NCBI GenBank assembly: GCA_017848795.1
Contig: JAFIHG010000017.1
Span: forward strand, 1 to 39,508
Source: Candidatus Nanopelagicales bacterium
GTDB lineage: Bacteria > Actinomycetota > Actinomycetes > S36-B12 > CAIYMF01
Direction of reading: 5' to 3'
DNA: 39,508 nucleotides
The notes beneath the pieces are model-generated. The model was not told the origin of the DNA, did no database searches, and was given only the letters and a program-made list of their open reading frames with translations. Numbering within the stretch: the first letter of the stretch is position 1; every line of letters begins with the position of its first letter. The position numbers were made by a program, and so were the translations under genes. Positions 21,462 to 38,703 of this stretch are shown piece by piece.

Positions 21462-24400
21462 TCACAAGCTCGGTGCGGGGCGAGCCGCGGCGCTCTGCCG
21501 CGCGGGCTCGGTCGTTGTGCCCTCGATGGTGGCGGCTTGGGCGCGGTTGAGGGCGGCGCGGGCGCGGATGGCGTCGATCTTCTGGCTGGTGCTCTCTGGC
21601 GCCGCCCCGAGCGGGGTTCGGTCGTCGGTGATGCCGTAGCGGTCGCGGTAGGCGGCGACGGTGCGGGCAGCACGCCACCACACCGCCTTCTGCTTCTTGC
21701 CCCTCGGAGCCGTGCCGAGGTCGGCCGTCCACGGTTCCTTCTCGGTGAGAGCGGTACGGAGTATGGCGTCGGCGCGGGCCTCGATCAGCTCGCGGCGCTC
21801 GTCCAGTGCTTGCCGCATGTCGCCTGTCATCTGCCCGCCGGCGTGCGGGATCAGTCCGACGATCAGTCTCGGGGGTTTGCGGGTTCGGCCTGATCCGGCG
21901 GGCCGGGCGGTGGCGCGCGCGACGCGGGCGTGGAGGACGGAGGCGATGTCGTCGGCGTCGTCCAGGCTCCGCGCGGAGACCAGCCGCGGGAGCAGCGTGT
22001 CGAGGTCGTGGTGGTTGGCTTCGGCGTGGCGCAGTTCGGCCGACAGCGCGCCGTAGGCGTCGGAGGCGAGCACGTCTTCGATCTGCTCGGCGGTGAGGCC
22101 GGAGGCTTGCAGGAGGGTGGCCCAGCGGTCGTGCTGGGCGGCTTGGGCGATGGTGTCGTACTCGGCCGCGAGCTGGGCGATCGAGCCCCAGCGGTCTTGC
22201 TCGGCGGTGATCGTCTCGTGCGCGGACAGCTCGGCGCCGATGTGCTGGAGCACTCCGTAGAGGATCGAGCGGGCGGTGACGTTCGGGTTGTCGCCGGGAT
22301 GCGGCACCGCGTGTTCGGCGTCCTCTCGGTCGACGGCGACGTAGGCGTGGTTGCTGTGGGCGCCGCGGGTCATGGAGACGTAGAAGTTCTCCCGCGTTGT
22401 GGTGGCGGTGGCGACCGCGTGCGCGGTGTCGGTGGTGACGCCCTGGGCGCGGTGCGCGGTGATCGCGTAGCCGAGTTCCAGGTGCTCGGCCACGTAGTCG
22501 GCCGGCAGGACGATCCCGCCTCCGAACCGGCGCCCGGCCGGGCGGATGCTGACCGACCCGTCCTCCCGGACCCCGGTGACGATCCAGCGGGAGCCGTTGC
22601 GGACCCAGGTTCGGCCGTTGCGGAGCCGTCGGTCGTTCTCGCGGGTGATGACCAGATCGCCCTCCGAGACCGCGGTGCCGTCGTGCAGGGCGAGTTCGCG
22701 GGTGGGGTTCACGGTGCCGTCGATGATCCGATCCGCTCGCGCTCTGGCGTTCAGTTCGGTGACGGTTGCCTGGGTCTCGGTGACCAGGATCGACGCGCGC
22801 CCGGCGGCAAGATCGGCCCGCCATGCGGTGTAGGCGGCGTCGATCATCGCTTCCTCGTCGCCCCCGGTGATCCGGCCGTGCTCGATCAGGGTGTCGATCG
22901 CCTCGGCGCGGCCGTGGCGGAGCTGGAGCGAGGTGGTCTTCTCCCACTCGTTCGTGAAGCGGTGCAGATCGGTCAGCTCCGGGGCGTCGTCGCGGGCGTG
23001 CACGAGCATGGCGAAACTGCCGCCGGCGCCCGGTGATTGGAGCTGGCCCCAGTCTCCGACCAGGAGGACTTTCGCGCCGGCCTTCTCGGCTTCATGGGTG
23101 AGCCGATCCAACGACATCGTGCCGGCCAGTGAGGCTTCGTCGATGATGACGAGCTGCCCGGCCGTGAACGTGGTCCCGTACATGAGGTGGTTCTGCCACC
23201 ACTTCGCTGTGTTCTCCGTGGCGATGCCGAGGTCATCCGCGAGGACCTGCGCGGCGACCGCCGAGGGGGCGAGCCCGATCACGGAGCCGGTGTCGTGCTC
23301 CTTCTCCCACGCCCGCCGGAGGCCGTTCATCGCCGTCGTCTTACCGGCCCCGGCCGGGCCGACCAGCACGTCCACGACCCGGCCGGAGACCGCGATCGCG
23401 GCCAGGGCCGCGGCCTGATCCTCGCCGAGCACCCGGCCGCGTGCGTCGGGCTTGCGGGCGATCCTCTCGACCGTCTCCAATGGCACGGTCGGCCCGGTCG
23501 TGGCGGCGGCTCGCGTCAGGAGGCGGTCTTCGGCGGCCAGCAGGACTTCGGATGAGAACAGGGTCGAGGCGTGCGGCCGGAATCGGGAGGTGCCGTCCGT
23601 CCGGCGGAACTGCAACGGGCTGGACGCCAGCTCCGGCGGCGTCAGCCGCAGCGAAGCGTGCTCGGCGGCATCGACCACGAGCCCGGTGATCGCCTCCCGG
23701 TCTTGGATGCTGGCGAACCGCCACCCCATCAACTGCCGGGATGTTTCGGCGTGCAGGTTCCAGCGGGTCCAGGTCGAACGCTTCTCACCGACCGTCTCCA
23801 TCACGGTCTGCCCGACCTCGCGCACCACATCCAGCGGCACGTCATCGGCGCGCAGCACCCGCCGCGGCGCCTCCGCGCTGGCCGTGGTGAGCGTGCGTGC
23901 CCAGCCGTTCGCGTCGCGTCGCAGCACCCGGCTGGCGCGCTGCCGCCACTCGCGGGTGAGGTCGGCCAGCGACCGGACCTGCTTCTCCGGCCTCGTGGCG
24001 AGCGTGGCCTGCGCCCGGAGTTTCAGCACCGTTCGGGCGGAGGGCTGCCGGCCGTGCTTGGCGACGTACTCGGCGATGAGGCGGTCTTTCTCGGTCTCGA
24101 TGTGCCGGGAGCGGGTGGAGAACTCGGTCACCAGCTCGTCGGGCACGCCTTCGATTTCCCAGGCCGGGTTCCGATCCCTGCCTCGCTCGCGCGCCTCCCA
24201 CTCCACGCCGAGGACGCGGGTGAGCTGGTCGGCCAGGGTGGCGTTGTAGAGCTCGGAGACGGCGACGACCACCGCGTGCATCGGCCGGCCGGCGAGGGTC
24301 CGCCAGCGGCCGTCCTGCACGGTCAGGACTTTGTTGCTGATGACGACGTGCGTGTGCAACTGAGGGTCGCCCGCGCGGCTGTCGTAGTGATCGAACGCCG

Positions 24401-25028
24401 CCGCTACGACGCCGGCGACATCGACGTGCGCAACCGCGCCGTCCGGGCCGGTTGCACCGACACGGGTTGCCGCAACCTCGCGTTCGAGGAACGCAACCAG
24501 TTCTGCAACCGCCGCGTGATGGGCGTCCGCGATCAGAGCTTGCGTGCCGGCGTCCGCAACCGCCCAGATCGTGGAGACCGACTTCGGCACGGAGAACGTG
24601 AAGTCGTAGCCCGCGACCGCGCGGCGGGTGCCGCGCCCGGCTTCCTCCGCCTCGATCACAGCCACCTCGCGCGCCCGAGCGGACGGCCCCAGCTCGGGAT
24701 CGAGGGCGTCGACGCGCTGCCTGACACGCTCCGTGATCGACGCGAACTGCTGGTAGGCGCGGCCCAGTGGATCGCCCGTGATCGGGTCATGGCCCATCCC
24801 GATCAACAGCGCGAGCTGGGCTTCTGAGACCTGCGCTCCCTCGACCAGCTCGCCGTGCCCGAGACGGCCCAGCCCGGAGCCCATCCAGAAGCCCGGCGGT
24901 GTTCCTGCCTCCGCGTAGTAGCGGGTCAGCGGCGTGCTCAGGCTCCGGTCGCCGTCGCCGGCGGCGACGGACTTCAACAGGTACTTGTACCCATCGCCTG
25001 CGCTCATCACGCGCATCGAGACCGTCAC
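21462..25028 (-). CDS. MobF-family relaxase/helicase (TrwC/TraI type)
   Basis: A 1188-residue conjugative nickase-helicase. The N-terminal third is a TrwC relaxase domain: GYKYLLKSVAAGD, YDFTFSVPKSVS (about residues 140-151), and the metal-binding LHTHVVISNK (near residue 222). The middle is a superfamily-1 helicase, with Walker A GPAGAGKTTAM near residue 556, Walker B VIIDEAS, GDWGQLQSPG (motif III), and the late YAITAHRAQGVT and YVSMTRG motifs. The C-terminal region is basic and of unknown role. It would nick at oriT, bind the 5' end and unwind the strand for transfer. GTG 25028 is the start: AGGAG is eight bases upstream, whereas the longer frame has no ribosome binding site and runs through palindromes. 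Confidence 0.93.
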   Translation of the reverse strand: MTVSMRVMSAGDGYKYLLKSVAAGDGDRSLSTPLTRYYAEAGTPPGFWMGSGLGRLGHGELVEGAQVSEAQLALLIGMGHDPITGDPLGRAYQQFASITERVRQRVDALDPELGPSARAREVAVIEAEEAGRGTRRAVAGYDFTFSVPKSVSTIWAVADAGTQALIADAHHAAVAELVAFLEREVAATRVGATGPDGAVAHVDVAGVVAAAFDHYDSRAGDPQLHTHVVISNKVLTVQDGRWRTLAGRPMHAVVVAVSELYNATLADQLTRVLGVEWEARERGRDRNPAWEIEGVPDELVTEFSTRSRHIETEKDRLIAEYVAKHGRQPSARTVLKLRAQATLATRPEKQVRSLADLTREWRQRASRVLRRDANGWARTLTTASAEAPRRVLRADDVPLDVVREVGQTVMETVGEKRSTWTRWNLHAETSRQLMGWRFASIQDREAITGLVVDAAEHASLRLTPPELASSPLQFRRTDGTSRFRPHASTLFSSEVLLAAEDRLLTRAAATTGPTVPLETVERIARKPDARGRVLGEDQAAALAAIAVSGRVVDVLVGPAGAGKTTAMNGLRRAWEKEHDTGSVIGLAPSAVAAQVLADDLGIATENTAKWWQNHLMYGTTFTAGQLVIIDEASLAGTMSLDRLTHEAEKAGAKVLLVGDWGQLQSPGAGGSFAMLVHARDDAPELTDLHRFTNEWEKTTSLQLRHGRAEAIDTLIEHGRITGGDEEAMIDAAYTAWRADLAAGRASILVTETQATVTELNARARADRIIDGTVNPTRELALHDGTAVSEGDLVITRENDRRLRNGRTWVRNGSRWIVTGVREDGSVSIRPAGRRFGGGIVLPADYVAEHLELGYAITAHRAQGVTTDTAHAVATATTTRENFYVSMTRGAHSNHAYVAVDREDAEHAVPHPGDNPNVTARSILYGVLQHIGAELSAHETITAEQDRWGSIAQLAAEYDTIAQAAQHDRWATLLQASGLTAEQIEDVLASDAYGALSAELRHAEANHHDLDTLLPRLVSARSLDDADDIASVLHARVARATARPAGSGRTRKPPRLIVGLIPHAGGQMTGDMRQALDERRELIEARADAILRTALTEKEPWTADLGTAPRGKKQKAVWWRAARTVAAYRDRYGITDDRTPLGAAPESTSQKIDAIRARAALNRAQAATIEGTTTEPARQSAAARPAPSL

Positions 25029-25350
25029 CTGGTCTGCTCCTTCCGCCGCTGTACGGAGGGCAGGTGAGCCCGCGAGCCCGGTCGCATCTGATGCGACTCG
25101 GGACGGCTCGCGCCTCTTCTGAAAGACGTGTGATGGCTCGGGAAGCCGGCGGGCTGAGCACTCTGGCGCCGGCGCCAGAGTCGCGGATTCGGGAGCACCG
25201 GGGTGGTGCGCCAAAGTGCGGGTCGCAGCATCCGCGACGGCGAGGCGTAGCGGCGATGGTTCGGGGGGTCGTGCACCTGGTCGCTGACCAGCCCGGCGGT
25301 GACCTCATGCGTGAAGTCCGACCGGGGATCACCCGTCAGCCGGAGCCCTC
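25029..25350. other. Candidate oriT / control region with three dyads
   Basis: This 322-bp gap between the divergent relaxase and methyltransferase genes contains three inverted repeats: 25081-25097 (arms GTCGCATC/GATGCGAC, 1-nt centre), 25160-25181 (perfect 22-bp palindrome, half-site ACTCTGGCGCC) and 25277-25291 (arms CTGGTC/GACCAG, 3-nt loop). MobF origins of transfer usually lie beside the relaxase gene and carry such dyads near the nick site. The same dyads could be operators for the two divergent promoters. No nic sequence is assigned. Confidence 0.5.
25160..25181. repeat. Perfect 22-bp palindrome upstream of the relaxase
   Basis: The half-site ACTCTGGCGCC is followed directly by its exact reverse complement, with no spacer. 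It lies 132 bp upstream of the relaxase start and 170 bp upstream of the methyltransferase. It is either an oriT-associated dyad or a dimeric repressor site. Confidence 0.85.
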
Positions 25351-26502
25351 ATGCACGACCCTCACGACAGGACTCGCCCGCTCAGGGTCGGGTCGCTGTT
25401 CTCCGGGTACGGCGGGCTCGACCTCGCCGTCGAACACGCCTTGGATGCCGAGACGATCTGGTTCTCCGAGAACAACGAACACGTCTCGCGTATCTTCGCC
25501 CACCACTGGCCCGGCGCCCCCAACCTGGGCGACATCACCACCATCGACTGGCGGGCGGTGCCCCCGGTCGACGTGCTCTGCGGAGGCTTCCCCTGCCAGG
25601 ACGTCTCGACCGTGGGCAAGCGCGCCGGCCTCGCGCCCGGCACCCGCTCCGGGCTCTGGTCGTACATGGCCGCCGCGATCGAGACGCTGCAACCCCAGCT
25701 CGTCGTCATCGAGAACGTGCGCGGGCTGCTGTCGTCTCCCGCCGTCCGCGCACCCCTGGAAGGAGATGACGATGCGCAACGCAACCCCAACCACGCAACC
25801 CCCGGCGATGCAACCCTTCGCGACCTGGAATCCGACCCGTGGGGTCTGGGAGACCTCGCAGCTCGACCTCTCCGGGCAGCCGGCGCCGTACTCGGCGATC
25901 TGGCCGACCTCGGGATGGATGCGCAATGGGTCGGCCTACCAGCGTCCCTTGTCGGCGCTCCTCACCCAAGGCTTCGCATCTTCATCACCGCCCATCGCAA
26001 GAGCGTTGTTCAGGACTCCCCTCGCCACGGACTCGACTCGCGGCGGCGAGTCACTGGAACAGGTGCGGGCACGGAGAGGGACGATCGCACTCTCGCATCA
26101 GATCATCGACCTGGCACTCAACGGACCGAGTGGCTTGCCCACCAAGAGCAGCGAACCGGAGATGCTGTGGTCCCTGATCGAGGACATCTTCACCGCTGGG
26201 GACGCTACGGCCACGCGATCGCACAGTGGGAACACATCATGGGAAGACCGGCCCCCGCGCCGGCACTCCTGATTGGCGACACCGCGCCACGCCCCGCACC
26301 GGAGTTTGTGGAATGGCTCATGGGCCTCCCCGCTGGCTGGGTCACCGCTCCGACGCATCGACTGACGGCAAACCAACAGCTCACAGCACTCGGCAATGGG
26401 GTGCTACCTCAACAGGCGGTGCGCGCCCTTGGCATTCTTCTCACATCCAGAGCAACGACGAACGTCAGCGCCAATCTTGTAGGTCACGACCAGAGTATCT
26501 GA
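25351..26502 (+). CDS. DNA (cytosine-5)-methyltransferase
   Basis: A 383-residue C5-cytosine methyltransferase. Motif I is VGSLFSGYGGLDLAVE (residues 13-28). Motif IV is GGFPCQDVS with catalytic Cys82. Motif VI is IENVRGLL with Glu121. Motif VIII appears as VGAPHPRLRIFITA. Motifs IX-X appear as LTALGNGVLPQQAVRAL near residue 350. The region between VIII and IX, expected to read the target, is unusual: its codons have only about 50% G/C at third positions, and a second open frame overlaps it. No restriction enzyme gene is adjacent, so it is probably an orphan enzyme that protects the element against host restriction (inference). The start ATG 25351 has GGAG five bases upstream. Confidence 0.9.
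   Translation: MHDPHDRTRPLRVGSLFSGYGGLDLAVEHALDAETIWFSENNEHVSRIFAHHWPGAPNLGDITTIDWRAVPPVDVLCGGFPCQDVSTVGKRAGLAPGTRSGLWSYMAAAIETLQPQLVVIENVRGLLSSPAVRAPLEGDDDAQRNPNHATPGDATLRDLESDPWGLGDLAARPLRAAGAVLGDLADLGMDAQWVGLPASLVGAPHPRLRIFITAHRKSVVQDSPRHGLDSRRRVTGTGAGTERDDRTLASDHRPGTQRTEWLAHQEQRTGDAVVPDRGHLHRWGRYGHAIAQWEHIMGRPAPAPALLIGDTAPRPAPEFVEWLMGLPAGWVTAPTHRLTANQQLTALGNGVLPQQAVRALGILLTSRATTNVSANLVGHDQSI
25772..26272 (+). CDS. Nested 166-residue frame inside the methyltransferase gene (+1 frame)
   Basis: An open frame lies wholly within the methyltransferase gene in the +1 frame. Its ATG is six bases after GGAAGGAG (25758-25765). The predicted protein has ordered-looking segments: FATWNPTRGVWETSQLDL, IWPTSGWMRNGSAYQRP, LFRTPLATDSTRGGESL and IALSHQIIDLAL. 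These resemble the W-x-TSG-M/W-x-x-NG-x-AY and PTP-type proteins found beside or within DNA methyltransferase genes of phages. Hand counting 26006-26191 gives about 80% G/C at third positions in this frame, against about 50% in the methyltransferase frame. It may be a separate accessory or specificity protein, or the remnant of a target-recognition region now read in another frame. Confidence 0.55.
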   Translation: MRNATPTTQPPAMQPFATWNPTRGVWETSQLDLSGQPAPYSAIWPTSGWMRNGSAYQRPLSALLTQGFASSSPPIARALFRTPLATDSTRGGESLEQVRARRGTIALSHQIIDLALNGPSGLPTKSSEPEMLWSLIEDIFTAGDATATRSHSGNTSWEDRPPRRHS

Positions 26503-35764: not shown

Positions 35765-35984
35765 TGTGCGCATGTAACCCGGCGATATCCGCAGGATTAG
35801 CCAGATCACACGCTCAACCGACGCCCGATCCCGTAGGCCAGTAGGGACTCGTCGGGTTCATCGCGGAGCCTGGCGGTCCGAAGCATCGCTCCGTCGTCCG
35901 TCTCGTCTCCTGATCCGCCCGGCGTACCTCGCGGTCGCACGGTCGCTCCCTCTCGGAGTGGCCCAGGCGGAGGGAGGTCAGGCG

Positions 35985-37082
35985 ATGGCTGCGAACGAGG
36001 ACAAGCAGGCGGCGCGGCAGGCGACGCTCGACGCGCTGGAAGAGCGCATTGTGCGCTCGGTCGAGGAACTGGTCTCGGGCGATGACTGGCGTCGTGCGAT
36101 CGAGTTCGCCGCGAGGTTCCGTACCCGCTCGTTCAACAACACGCTCTTGATCTGGGCGCAGCACTTGGAAGCCTACGAACAGGGCCGGGTGCCGACGCCG
36201 ACACCGACCTGGGTGGCGGGGTTCAAGGACTGGCGGAAGATGGGCCGCTGGCCGGAGAAGGACGGCGGGTATCGGATTCGCGGTCCGGTCAAGGCGAGGT
36301 TCGCATCGGCCAGCCCGCGCGATCCGGCGTCGTGGCGGCGGTTGGGGTCATGGGAGAAGCCGCGGCCCGGCGAGGTCGTGCGTCGCCGGATCGTCAGTGT
36401 CGTCCCGGCCTATGTGTGGGACGTGTCGAGGACGCACGGAGACCCGCTTCCCGAGCTGCCACGTCCGAGGCTACTGGAAGGCGAAGCCCCGGCCGGGCTG
36501 TGGGAGGGCCTGGCCGAGCAGGCGGAGTCGCTGGGGTTCGAGGTGCTGCGGATGCCGCGCGACCGCATGGAGCGGGGCGCGAACGGCTGCACGGATTTCG
36601 AGACCCGTCAGGTGATGGTCTGCGCGGACATGGACCCGGCCGCGCAGGTCAAGACCCTCGCGCACGAACTGGCGCATGTCCGGCTGGATGGCCCGAACCA
36701 GCAGGACGACGCCCGCGAACATCGCGGGATCAGCGAGGTGCGGGCCGAGTCGGTCGCGCTGATGATCGCCGCCGCGCACGGCATGGACACCAGCGACTAC
36801 ACGATCCCATATGTCGCCGGATGGGCGGCCAACGTGGACGGGAAAGACCCCGTGGCGGTCGTGCGCGCCACGGGCGAGCAGGTGCGCAGCACCGCATTCG
36901 ACATCCTCGACAAGCTCGACACCGCACAGCTCGGGAACGGGAACCCGCTGTCCCTGCGCGTGGACGGCCCGGAGCACACGTCGCAGGCCCAGGAGACGCC
37001 AGAGCAGGCCGCACGCCAGGTCGAGCCGCTGCCGGAACGGGAAACGCCGGCGACTCCGGTCGTCTCGGGACGGGGCCTGTGA
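35985..37082 (+). CDS. ArdC-like antirestriction protein with zincin domain
   Basis: A 365-residue protein. The N-terminal ~110 residues resemble the ArdC ssDNA-binding domain (SFNNTLLIWAQHLE, then VAGFKDWRKMGRWPEKDGG). A metallopeptidase-like domain follows, with HELAH at residues 227-231 and a distal Glu255 in EVRAESVAL. ArdC proteins coat incoming single-stranded DNA and block restriction during plasmid entry; the zincin part is needed in some homologues. ATG 35985 has GGGAGG seven bases upstream. Its stop overlaps the next start (TGATG), so it leads a four- or five-gene operon. Confidence 0.88.
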   Translation: MAANEDKQAARQATLDALEERIVRSVEELVSGDDWRRAIEFAARFRTRSFNNTLLIWAQHLEAYEQGRVPTPTPTWVAGFKDWRKMGRWPEKDGGYRIRGPVKARFASASPRDPASWRRLGSWEKPRPGEVVRRRIVSVVPAYVWDVSRTHGDPLPELPRPRLLEGEAPAGLWEGLAEQAESLGFEVLRMPRDRMERGANGCTDFETRQVMVCADMDPAAQVKTLAHELAHVRLDGPNQQDDAREHRGISEVRAESVALMIAAAHGMDTSDYTIPYVAGWAANVDGKDPVAVVRATGEQVRSTAFDILDKLDTAQLGNGNPLSLRVDGPEHTSQAQETPEQAARQVEPLPERETPATPVVSGRGL

Positions 37083-37996
37083 TGGTCGCCCACGCTACGG
37101 CTGCCGCCGTGTTCGGTCAGCTCGACGGGGCGCCGCTGCCGGTCGCGGCGGGTGAGCTGGCGCGAGCCGGGGTGCCGGTGTTCCCGTGCGCGCCGGGCGG
37201 GAAGCGGCCGATCCCGGAGCGCGGGTTCCACGAGGCCAGCGTCGACCTGGCCCGGGTTGAGGGGTGGTGGCGGTCGCGGCCGACCGCGAACATCGGCATC
37301 CCGACTGGCGCCGTCTCGGGGCTGGTCGTGATCGATGTGGACGTTCACGGCGTCAACGGGTATGCCGCCTATGCGCGGGCGGCGCGGGCCGGGTTGATCC
37401 CGGAGCCGTTGGCGGTCGTGCGCACACCGACCGGCGGCCAGCACGCCTACTTCCCGGCCGAGCCGAACCAGGCGCAACGATCCTGGCAGGCCGGGAAGGT
37501 CGGCATCGACTGTCGCGGGGACGGCGGCTACATCATTGCCCCGCCCTCGCTGCTGCGGCTGGACGGCGTGCGCACCCCGTACCGGATCGAGCAGGTCGCG
37601 GCCGGTGCTGCCCGGCCGATAGATGCGGGCCGGCTGCGGGACTTCCTCGATCCTCGGCCCGCGCCCCGGCCGCGCCCCGGCAGGCCGGTGCGGCGGGAGG
37701 ACGCGGAGCGGCTGGCGACGTGGCTGGGCCGGCAGGCCACCGACCGCAACCTCAAACTCTTCTGGGCCTCGTGCCGCTTGGCCGAGGGCGGGGTGCCGCT
37801 CACGGATGCTCTGGATGCGATGGTGACGGCCGCGCAGTCGGACTTCGGGGAGCGGGAAATCACTCGCACCGTCTACAGCGCCTATCGCAGCGTCGGCGCC
37901 GGAGCCCGGCCGGACCGTCCCGCCGCATCGCCTTCGGGCGAGTTCGCTCGCGGGAACGTGCAGCAGCGGGCGCTCGTCACGCGGGGGCTGCAATGA
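37082..37996 (+). CDS. Bifunctional DNA primase/polymerase (prim-pol type)
   Basis: A 304-residue protein with an archaeo-eukaryotic-primase-like fold. Landmarks are LARAGVPVFPCAPGGKRPI, NIGIPTGAVSGLVVIDVDVHG (catalytic acidic D-x-D pair near residues 84-86), VVRTPTGGQHAYF and GIDCRGDGGYIIAPPS. A short helical C-terminal part follows. Such enzymes prime second-strand synthesis or replication of mobile elements. The start overlaps the ArdC-like stop by one base, and its stop overlaps the next ATG (ATGA), so translation is coupled. Confidence 0.9.
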   Translation: MVAHATAAAVFGQLDGAPLPVAAGELARAGVPVFPCAPGGKRPIPERGFHEASVDLARVEGWWRSRPTANIGIPTGAVSGLVVIDVDVHGVNGYAAYARAARAGLIPEPLAVVRTPTGGQHAYFPAEPNQAQRSWQAGKVGIDCRGDGGYIIAPPSLLRLDGVRTPYRIEQVAAGAARPIDAGRLRDFLDPRPAPRPRPGRPVRREDAERLATWLGRQATDRNLKLFWASCRLAEGGVPLTDALDAMVTAAQSDFGEREITRTVYSAYRSVGAGARPDRPAASPSGEFARGNVQQRALVTRGLQ

Positions 37997-38703
37997 AGGA
38001 GCTGCGCGGACGCCGGTGGGCGGTCATCACCTCGGTCGCCGGGACGGTGTTCATCGCCGCCGGCGCGTTCTGGCTCAGTTTCACCTCGTTGGCCGACCTT
38101 GCTCGCCGCTCCGGGATCGGGGCCGGGCAGGCGTGGGCGTGGCCGCTGATCGTCGATGGCGTGATCGTGGTCTCCACGGTCGCCGTCGTCGCCCTCGCTG
38201 GTGAGCGGGCGGCGTGGTATCCGTGGGCGCTGCTGGTCGGCGGTGCCGCGGTGTCGGTGACGGCGAACTCTCTGCACGCGGTGGTCGCGGCCGACACCGA
38301 CGTGCCCGGCCCGCTCGCGGCCGCGGTCGCCGCCGTGCCGCCGGTCGTGCTGCTGGCGATCACCCATCTGACGGTCGTGCTGACCCGCGCCACCGCACGT
38401 CCGGCTGCTGCGCTCGAGGTGCCGCCGGCGGTCGAGCCGATCAGCGCCCTGCCACAGAGCGAAGCACTACCTCTCGACTCACCACCTGCGGCGGCAGGCG
38501 TAACCGATGCGGACGCGGACGGCGGGCCGGATCGCCGGGTGCTCGCGGCCGAGCTGCGCGAGCAGGACTGGTCGAACAAGGCCATCGCCCGGCACCTGGG
38601 CGTGCATCCCTCGACGGTGGGCCGCTGGCTGCCGCGTGCTCACCAGTCCGATGAGGCGGACCCGTCCGGGTCGCAGCCCGAGATGGAAGGAGCACTGCCA
38701 TGA
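37993..38703 (+). CDS. DUF2637 membrane protein with C-terminal helix-turn-helix
   Basis: A 236-residue protein. The first ~145 residues are four transmembrane helices with DUF2637 features (FWLSFTSLADLARRSGI, WPLIVDGVIVVSTVAVVALA, VTANSLHAVVAA). After a proline-rich linker, residues 180-215 form a helix-turn-helix (LREQDWSNKAIARHLGVHPSTVGRWL). DUF2637 proteins are common in actinobacterial plasmids and conjugative elements (SpdB-like); a role in intramycelial spread or transfer control is only suggested by context. It overlaps both neighbours by ATGA. Confidence 0.85.
   Translation: MKELRGRRWAVITSVAGTVFIAAGAFWLSFTSLADLARRSGIGAGQAWAWPLIVDGVIVVSTVAVVALAGERAAWYPWALLVGGAAVSVTANSLHAVVAADTDVPGPLAAAVAAVPPVVLLAITHLTVVLTRATARPAAALEVPPAVEPISALPQSEALPLDSPPAAAGVTDADADGGPDRRVLAAELREQDWSNKAIARHLGVHPSTVGRWLPRAHQSDEADPSGSQPEMEGALP

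Follow-up and report, generated by a model that had tools for sequence, protein, structure and literature searches.

A conserved, putatively overprinted gene in the +1 frame of an actinobacterial C5-cytosine methyltransferase gene

Can the DNA of a cytosine methyltransferase gene encode, in a second reading frame, another part of the same enzyme? The question is raised by a locus in a contig of Candidatus Nanopelagicales bacterium (JAFIHG010000017.1), analysed over a stretch of 39,508 nucleotides that is referred to here as the window. A methyltransferase gene, which we call alpha, encloses a second open frame, beta. The features outside beta are the following:

25351..26502, plus strand: alpha, predicted C5-cytosine DNA methyltransferase of 383 amino acids, with motifs I-VIII, IX and X (PF00145)
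25591..25599, plus strand: motif IV of alpha (PCQ) with the predicted catalytic Cys82; P81, C82 and Q83 are invariant in the alpha alignment
25954..25977, plus strand: motif VIII of alpha, GAPHPRLR, from the alpha alignment
26305..26418, plus strand: motifs IX and X in the alpha frame, 3´ of the end of beta, from the alpha alignment
21462..25214, minus strand: TraA/MobF-type relaxase-helicase (TrwC PF08751, 2.6e-94; MobF NF041492), given as context and lying outside the nested pair

By its profile match to PF00145 (1.2e-32) and the presence of catalytic motifs IV (PCQ), VI (ENV), VIII and X, alpha meets the description of a C5-cytosine DNA methyltransferase. TIGR00675 (dcm) is matched with 102.5 bits at a cut-off of 100.65, and M.HhaI is the top Foldseek match of the AlphaFold model of alpha (E 2.6e-11). 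Motif IX, FVEWLMGLPAGW, occupies 26305-26340 and motif X, LGNGVLPQQA, 26389-26418; the C-terminal part of alpha matches PHROG 363 and PHROG 1008, covering positions 204-323 of the latter. The preliminary description had placed motif VIII, and motifs IX-X beyond the end of beta, in the alpha frame, and the alignment bears this out.

The nested frame has its own start signal and two recognizable parts:

25760..25765, plus strand: Shine-Dalgarno sequence of beta, AAGGAG, with a spacer of 6 nt to the ATG; kept in relatives
25772..26272, plus strand: beta, 166 amino acids, +1 to alpha, made up of a W segment and, after it, a single PTP-like unit, with a PHROG 1008 match
25820..25948, plus strand: W segment of beta (ATWNPTRGVWET...IWPTSGWMRNG...), overlapping motifs VII-VIII of alpha, with both frames constrained
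26009..26125, plus strand: PTP-like unit of beta (FRTPLATDSTRGGESLEQVRARRGTIALSHQIIDLALNG), where the alpha frame is an unconserved, stop-free spacer

Beta runs for 166 codons from the ATG at 25772 to a stop codon ending at 26272, and is in the +1 frame of alpha since (25772-25351) mod 3 = 1. Its position and strong ribosome binding site agree with the preliminary description, and the hand count given there of third-position G+C over 26006-26191 (about 80% against about 50%) compares with computed values of 0.806 for beta and 0.508 for alpha. The suggestion that beta resembles W/PTP-type phage proteins linked to methyltransferases also finds support: PHROG 1008, labelled 'DNA methyltransferase', matches at 7.2e-11 (beta residues 3-95, PHROG positions 60-150 of 329), and homologues occur in 186 phage records, all from actinophages. 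On the profile match of its W and PTP segments, beta thus qualifies as a PHROG 1008 W-PTP protein. Apart from PHROG 1008, the W segment is without a known fold or family, and sequence searches of Pfam, NCBIfam, PADLOC and PDB with beta returned nothing useful. Since the AlphaFold model of beta alone is poor (pLDDT 51) and there is no PDB sequence match, structural proof of a recognition domain in beta is lacking. The openness of the frame is by itself weak proof of a gene, because in this GC-rich DNA it remains open as far back as 24782.

An alignment of alpha was searched against 84,980 species genomes, and the best 80 of 200 were retained, all of them actinobacterial loci. A beta homologue is present in the +1 frame of alpha in all 80, as well as in a viral contig (L004) and in a second locus of the window's own genome (L006). 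Because the query rows of this search all had beta and only the best 80 of 200 were kept, the result describes close relatives. The preliminary description had named regular interruption of the nested frame in homologous genes as a refutation. Such interruption was not seen among the 80 loci: two (L069 and L087) have a single in-frame beta stop beside an intact alpha, and a third (L009) has a shortened beta N-terminus. The Shine-Dalgarno sequence GAAGGAG and the ATG of beta are conserved in sequence among the relatives and shift together where their position moves. In the same-family genomes examined, no beta was found apart from the window's own genome. The second alpha-beta pair of that genome (contig C18) has a beta 76% identical to that of the window and shares an identical alpha DNA sequence with a locus from a different MAG (L019).

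If both frames encode protein, the alpha codon position that varies most freely should change within the overlap, and this predicted switch was seen. Nucleotide diversity among 74 distinct sequences at alpha codon positions 1, 2 and 3 is 0.147, 0.096 and 0.386 upstream of the overlap, 0.249, 0.214 and 0.216 over 25772-25870, 0.477, 0.207 and 0.148 over 26000-26150, and 0.26, 0.206 and 0.586 downstream. The most variable position thus moves from alpha position 3 to alpha position 1, which is beta position 3, over 26000-26150, and then returns to alpha position 3. Over the same interval, beta has a mean pairwise amino-acid identity of 0.78, compared to 0.43 for alpha. The proposal that part of this DNA codes in two frames therefore holds, with a refinement: over approximately 26000-26150 amino-acid constraint acts on beta only, and alpha is merely kept free of stops. 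Between motifs VIII and IX, alpha yielded no identifiable recognition domain; its sequence overlapping beta is unconserved there and modelled with low confidence. The AlphaFold model of alpha is of low confidence at residues 126-166 and 220-254 (pLDDT below 50 at 220-254), stretches overlapping the constrained segments of beta.

Synonymous codon shuffles address the two frames in turn. They were applied to 71 loci, leaving out the three with a visibly damaged beta (L069, L087 and L009). When alpha was preserved, 51.6 loci were expected to contain a beta stop and none did; a beta Shine-Dalgarno sequence with a start was present in 62 of the 71 at an expectation of 13.9. When beta was preserved, an alpha stop in the PTP region was expected in 30.9 loci, again against none observed. 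Alpha is thus stop-free where only beta is constrained, which argues that both frames are kept. The shuffles ignore relatedness, so that the counts are not independent events and the argument rests on the size of the differences. These results show that beta is coding and conserved, with a conserved start signal, and that both frames are maintained. As far as comparative sequence evidence can decide, the nested frame is a real gene.

The overlap extends to phages. The loci considered were phage records, some of them selected by alpha, and IMG/VR contigs selected by W. In every locus with both elements recognized (more than 100 actinophage and viral loci), the W segment is +1 to motif VIII of alpha. 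A few W matches lack a match to the motif VIII pattern, and profile matches to that part of alpha are present there. The C-terminal part with motifs IX-X is in the alpha frame in 80 phage and IMG/VR loci and in the beta frame in 13. None of 200 alpha-preserving shuffles reached the real W score in any of 96 phage loci, and with a W profile built from the genome family only the same was true of 94 of the 96. For the arginine of the alpha ENVRG sequence, the codon of which lies just 5´ of the usual GTG start of phage beta, 63 of 81 phage loci use AGA or AGG, compared to 8.4% of other arginine codons, and this choice creates an SD-like AGGGGG or AGAGGA. In a Thermus phage and one metagenomic phage methyltransferase, no W segment scored above threshold.

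In a second viral group, found with the beta of locus L008, W is again read +1 to motif VIII, and this is so in 53 of 53 recognized loci. Here, motif IX is in the beta frame wherever recognized (52 loci) and motif X in alpha in 51 of 52 nested loci. Between W and motif IX, the beta frame is open in 52 loci, and in all 52 of them the third frame is interrupted by stops. Two Paenibacillus loci of only 43-44% GC have the same layout; their beta frames stay open for 236 and 283 codons, against 24 and 50 stops in the third frame. In IMG/VR, the W query confirmed at least 259 loci and a second beta query at least 597, figures that are lower bounds for the scale of the overlap in viruses. Judged by these sequences, hundreds of phages share the overlap, for the most part without its annotation. 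Of the phage and bacterial records examined, the majority annotate only one gene of the pair, and no description of the nested arrangement in phages was found in the open-access literature. A nested methylase-domain gene is already annotated in Mycobacterium phage Babsiella (gp54/gp55) and Paenibacillus phage Leyra (gp61/gp62).

What does beta do? C5-methyltransferases have their target-recognition regions between motifs VIII and IX, the very place at which PTP units occur in cis in the alpha of single-frame phage enzymes. In split phage loci (Abidatro gp41, Jinkies gp3 and the Peaches gp76 region), W, PTP, IX and X are on one chain. That phage W-PTP proteins carry motif IX, or IX and X, in their own chain supports beta as a putative part of the methyltransferase. 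The fusion in the split phages, the PTP units in cis and the unconserved, low-confidence region of alpha together suggest that beta is a methyltransferase part supplied in trans. In such a scheme, beta would be an overprinted +1 gene with a Shine-Dalgarno sequence and ATG of its own for translation, and its product, the W segment with the PTP-like unit, would join alpha in a C5-cytosine methyltransferase of two polypeptides. Cofactor binding, catalysis and motifs IX-X would come from alpha. Beta would supply or complete target recognition, a role that is probable because alpha lacks a conserved target-recognition segment in its own frame. We consider it likely that beta is a genuine overprinted gene for a trans subunit of alpha, probably acting in target recognition, in the absence of data on expression, binding or activity. 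It is inferred without direct data that the two chains form a complex and are both required; the same holds for the role in target recognition, activity and specificity. Two observations qualify the subunit model. L069 and L087, which retain an intact alpha with a broken beta, speak against it, and in many phages (e.g., L003) alpha has PTP units in its own frame too, such that supply in trans is not the sole route. As a separate observation, VADAN-like repeats in phage alpha (loci L192-L271) appear to be the other-frame reading of the WPTPT repeats of beta.

A bolder version, to which we give slightly less than even weight, is that the W-PTP protein is an obligate, specificity-setting subunit of a large and mostly unannotated class of two-chain cytosine methyltransferases, the genes of which have been locked together by overprinting since before the phages of Actinobacteria, Bacillota and other hosts split, and never occur outside the overlap.

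Beta could also be real and have another role: it might act as a chaperone, inhibit or regulate alpha, or be a mobile-element protein in its own right. The isolation of the W segment from known folds and families leaves room for this, as does the conserved relaxase gene adjoining the pair; the fusion of phage W-PTP to IX and X, and the cis PTP units between VIII and IX, point instead to an enzyme part, and we regard a different role as unlikely, though not negligible. A programmed frameshift that joins the N-terminal part of alpha to the beta segment, with no separate beta protein, is conceivable from the split phages, where the N-terminal half and the W-PTP-C part occupy two overlapping frames that a single +1 shift could join. 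We find it improbable, as beta has its own Shine-Dalgarno sequence and start, conserved in the genome family and in phages, and regaining IX-X in the window would need two shifts (data on slippery sites are lacking). The notion that the beta frame is a mechanical other-frame reading of a conserved methyltransferase without a product has in its favour that GC-rich DNA keeps long frames open and that LADLG-YDA-W of alpha yields a PTSG-like string in +1, giving alpha-preserving shuffles about 29 bits against the W profile, and is scarcely credible in the face of real W scores above every shuffle, the better conservation of beta over 26000-26150, the start and stop shuffle tests and the open Paenibacillus frames. 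Chance openness in GC-rich DNA was ruled out by the codon-position, shuffle and low-GC Paenibacillus results, and beta as a trivial by-product of conserved alpha motifs by the shuffle tests.

The trans-subunit reading has precedents in M.EcoHK31I (YGGCCR) and M.AquI (CYCGRG), C5-methyltransferases that share with the window pair the idea of two polypeptides. The M.AquI subunits are encoded by partly overlapping open reading frames. The gene for the small subunit of M.EcoHK31I lies within that for the large subunit, in a different frame, and the window similarly has a second conserved polypeptide in another frame inside alpha. The larger chain of M.EcoHK31I has motifs I-VIII and X and the predicted target domain, and the smaller chain has only motif IX; in M.AquI, motifs I-VIII are on a large subunit, which is accompanied by a smaller one (PMC3404938). 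In contrast to M.EcoHK31I, motif IX of the window is in alpha and not in beta, and IX-X, present in the small subunit of M.AquI, are also in alpha. From its motif layout, the window pair would therefore fit the general two-polypeptide idea and be a member of neither type. The second phage group has the M.EcoHK31I layout (IX in beta, X in alpha), and the split actinophages Abidatro, Jinkies and Peaches have an M.AquI-like one. The W-PTP and IX-X regions matched in PHROG 1008 proteins are in the window on different chains and in different frames. Among the matches listed, no enterobacterial nested pair was found as a plasmid relative of M.EcoHK31I.

If the interpretation is correct, gene callers miss one chain of a common methyltransferase of phages and mobile elements, and alpha expressed alone from annotation may seem inactive or of the wrong specificity. 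The locus would also be a deeply conserved and easily tested case of overlapping genes that encode parts of one enzyme.

A MobF/TrwC-type relaxase gene is divergent and upstream of alpha in 75 of 82 relatives. Further along the window, on the plus strand, 35958-37082, 36332-37996 and 37264-38703 encode ArdC N-terminal-like plus M78 peptidase, prim-pol and DUF2637 genes, which suggests an integrative or plasmid-derived element. Together, the relaxase neighbour and the ArdC-like and prim-pol genes place the pair in an element that is conjugative or mobilisable. Protection of the DNA of this element is a plausible role, without test data. In a Microbacterium plasmid (NZ_CP072877; L101), beta is annotated as a hypothetical protein and alpha is unannotated, with a break of the alpha frame near the N-terminus. 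An Embleya plasmid (L103) has two tandem methyltransferase loci, the first split and the second apparently nested.
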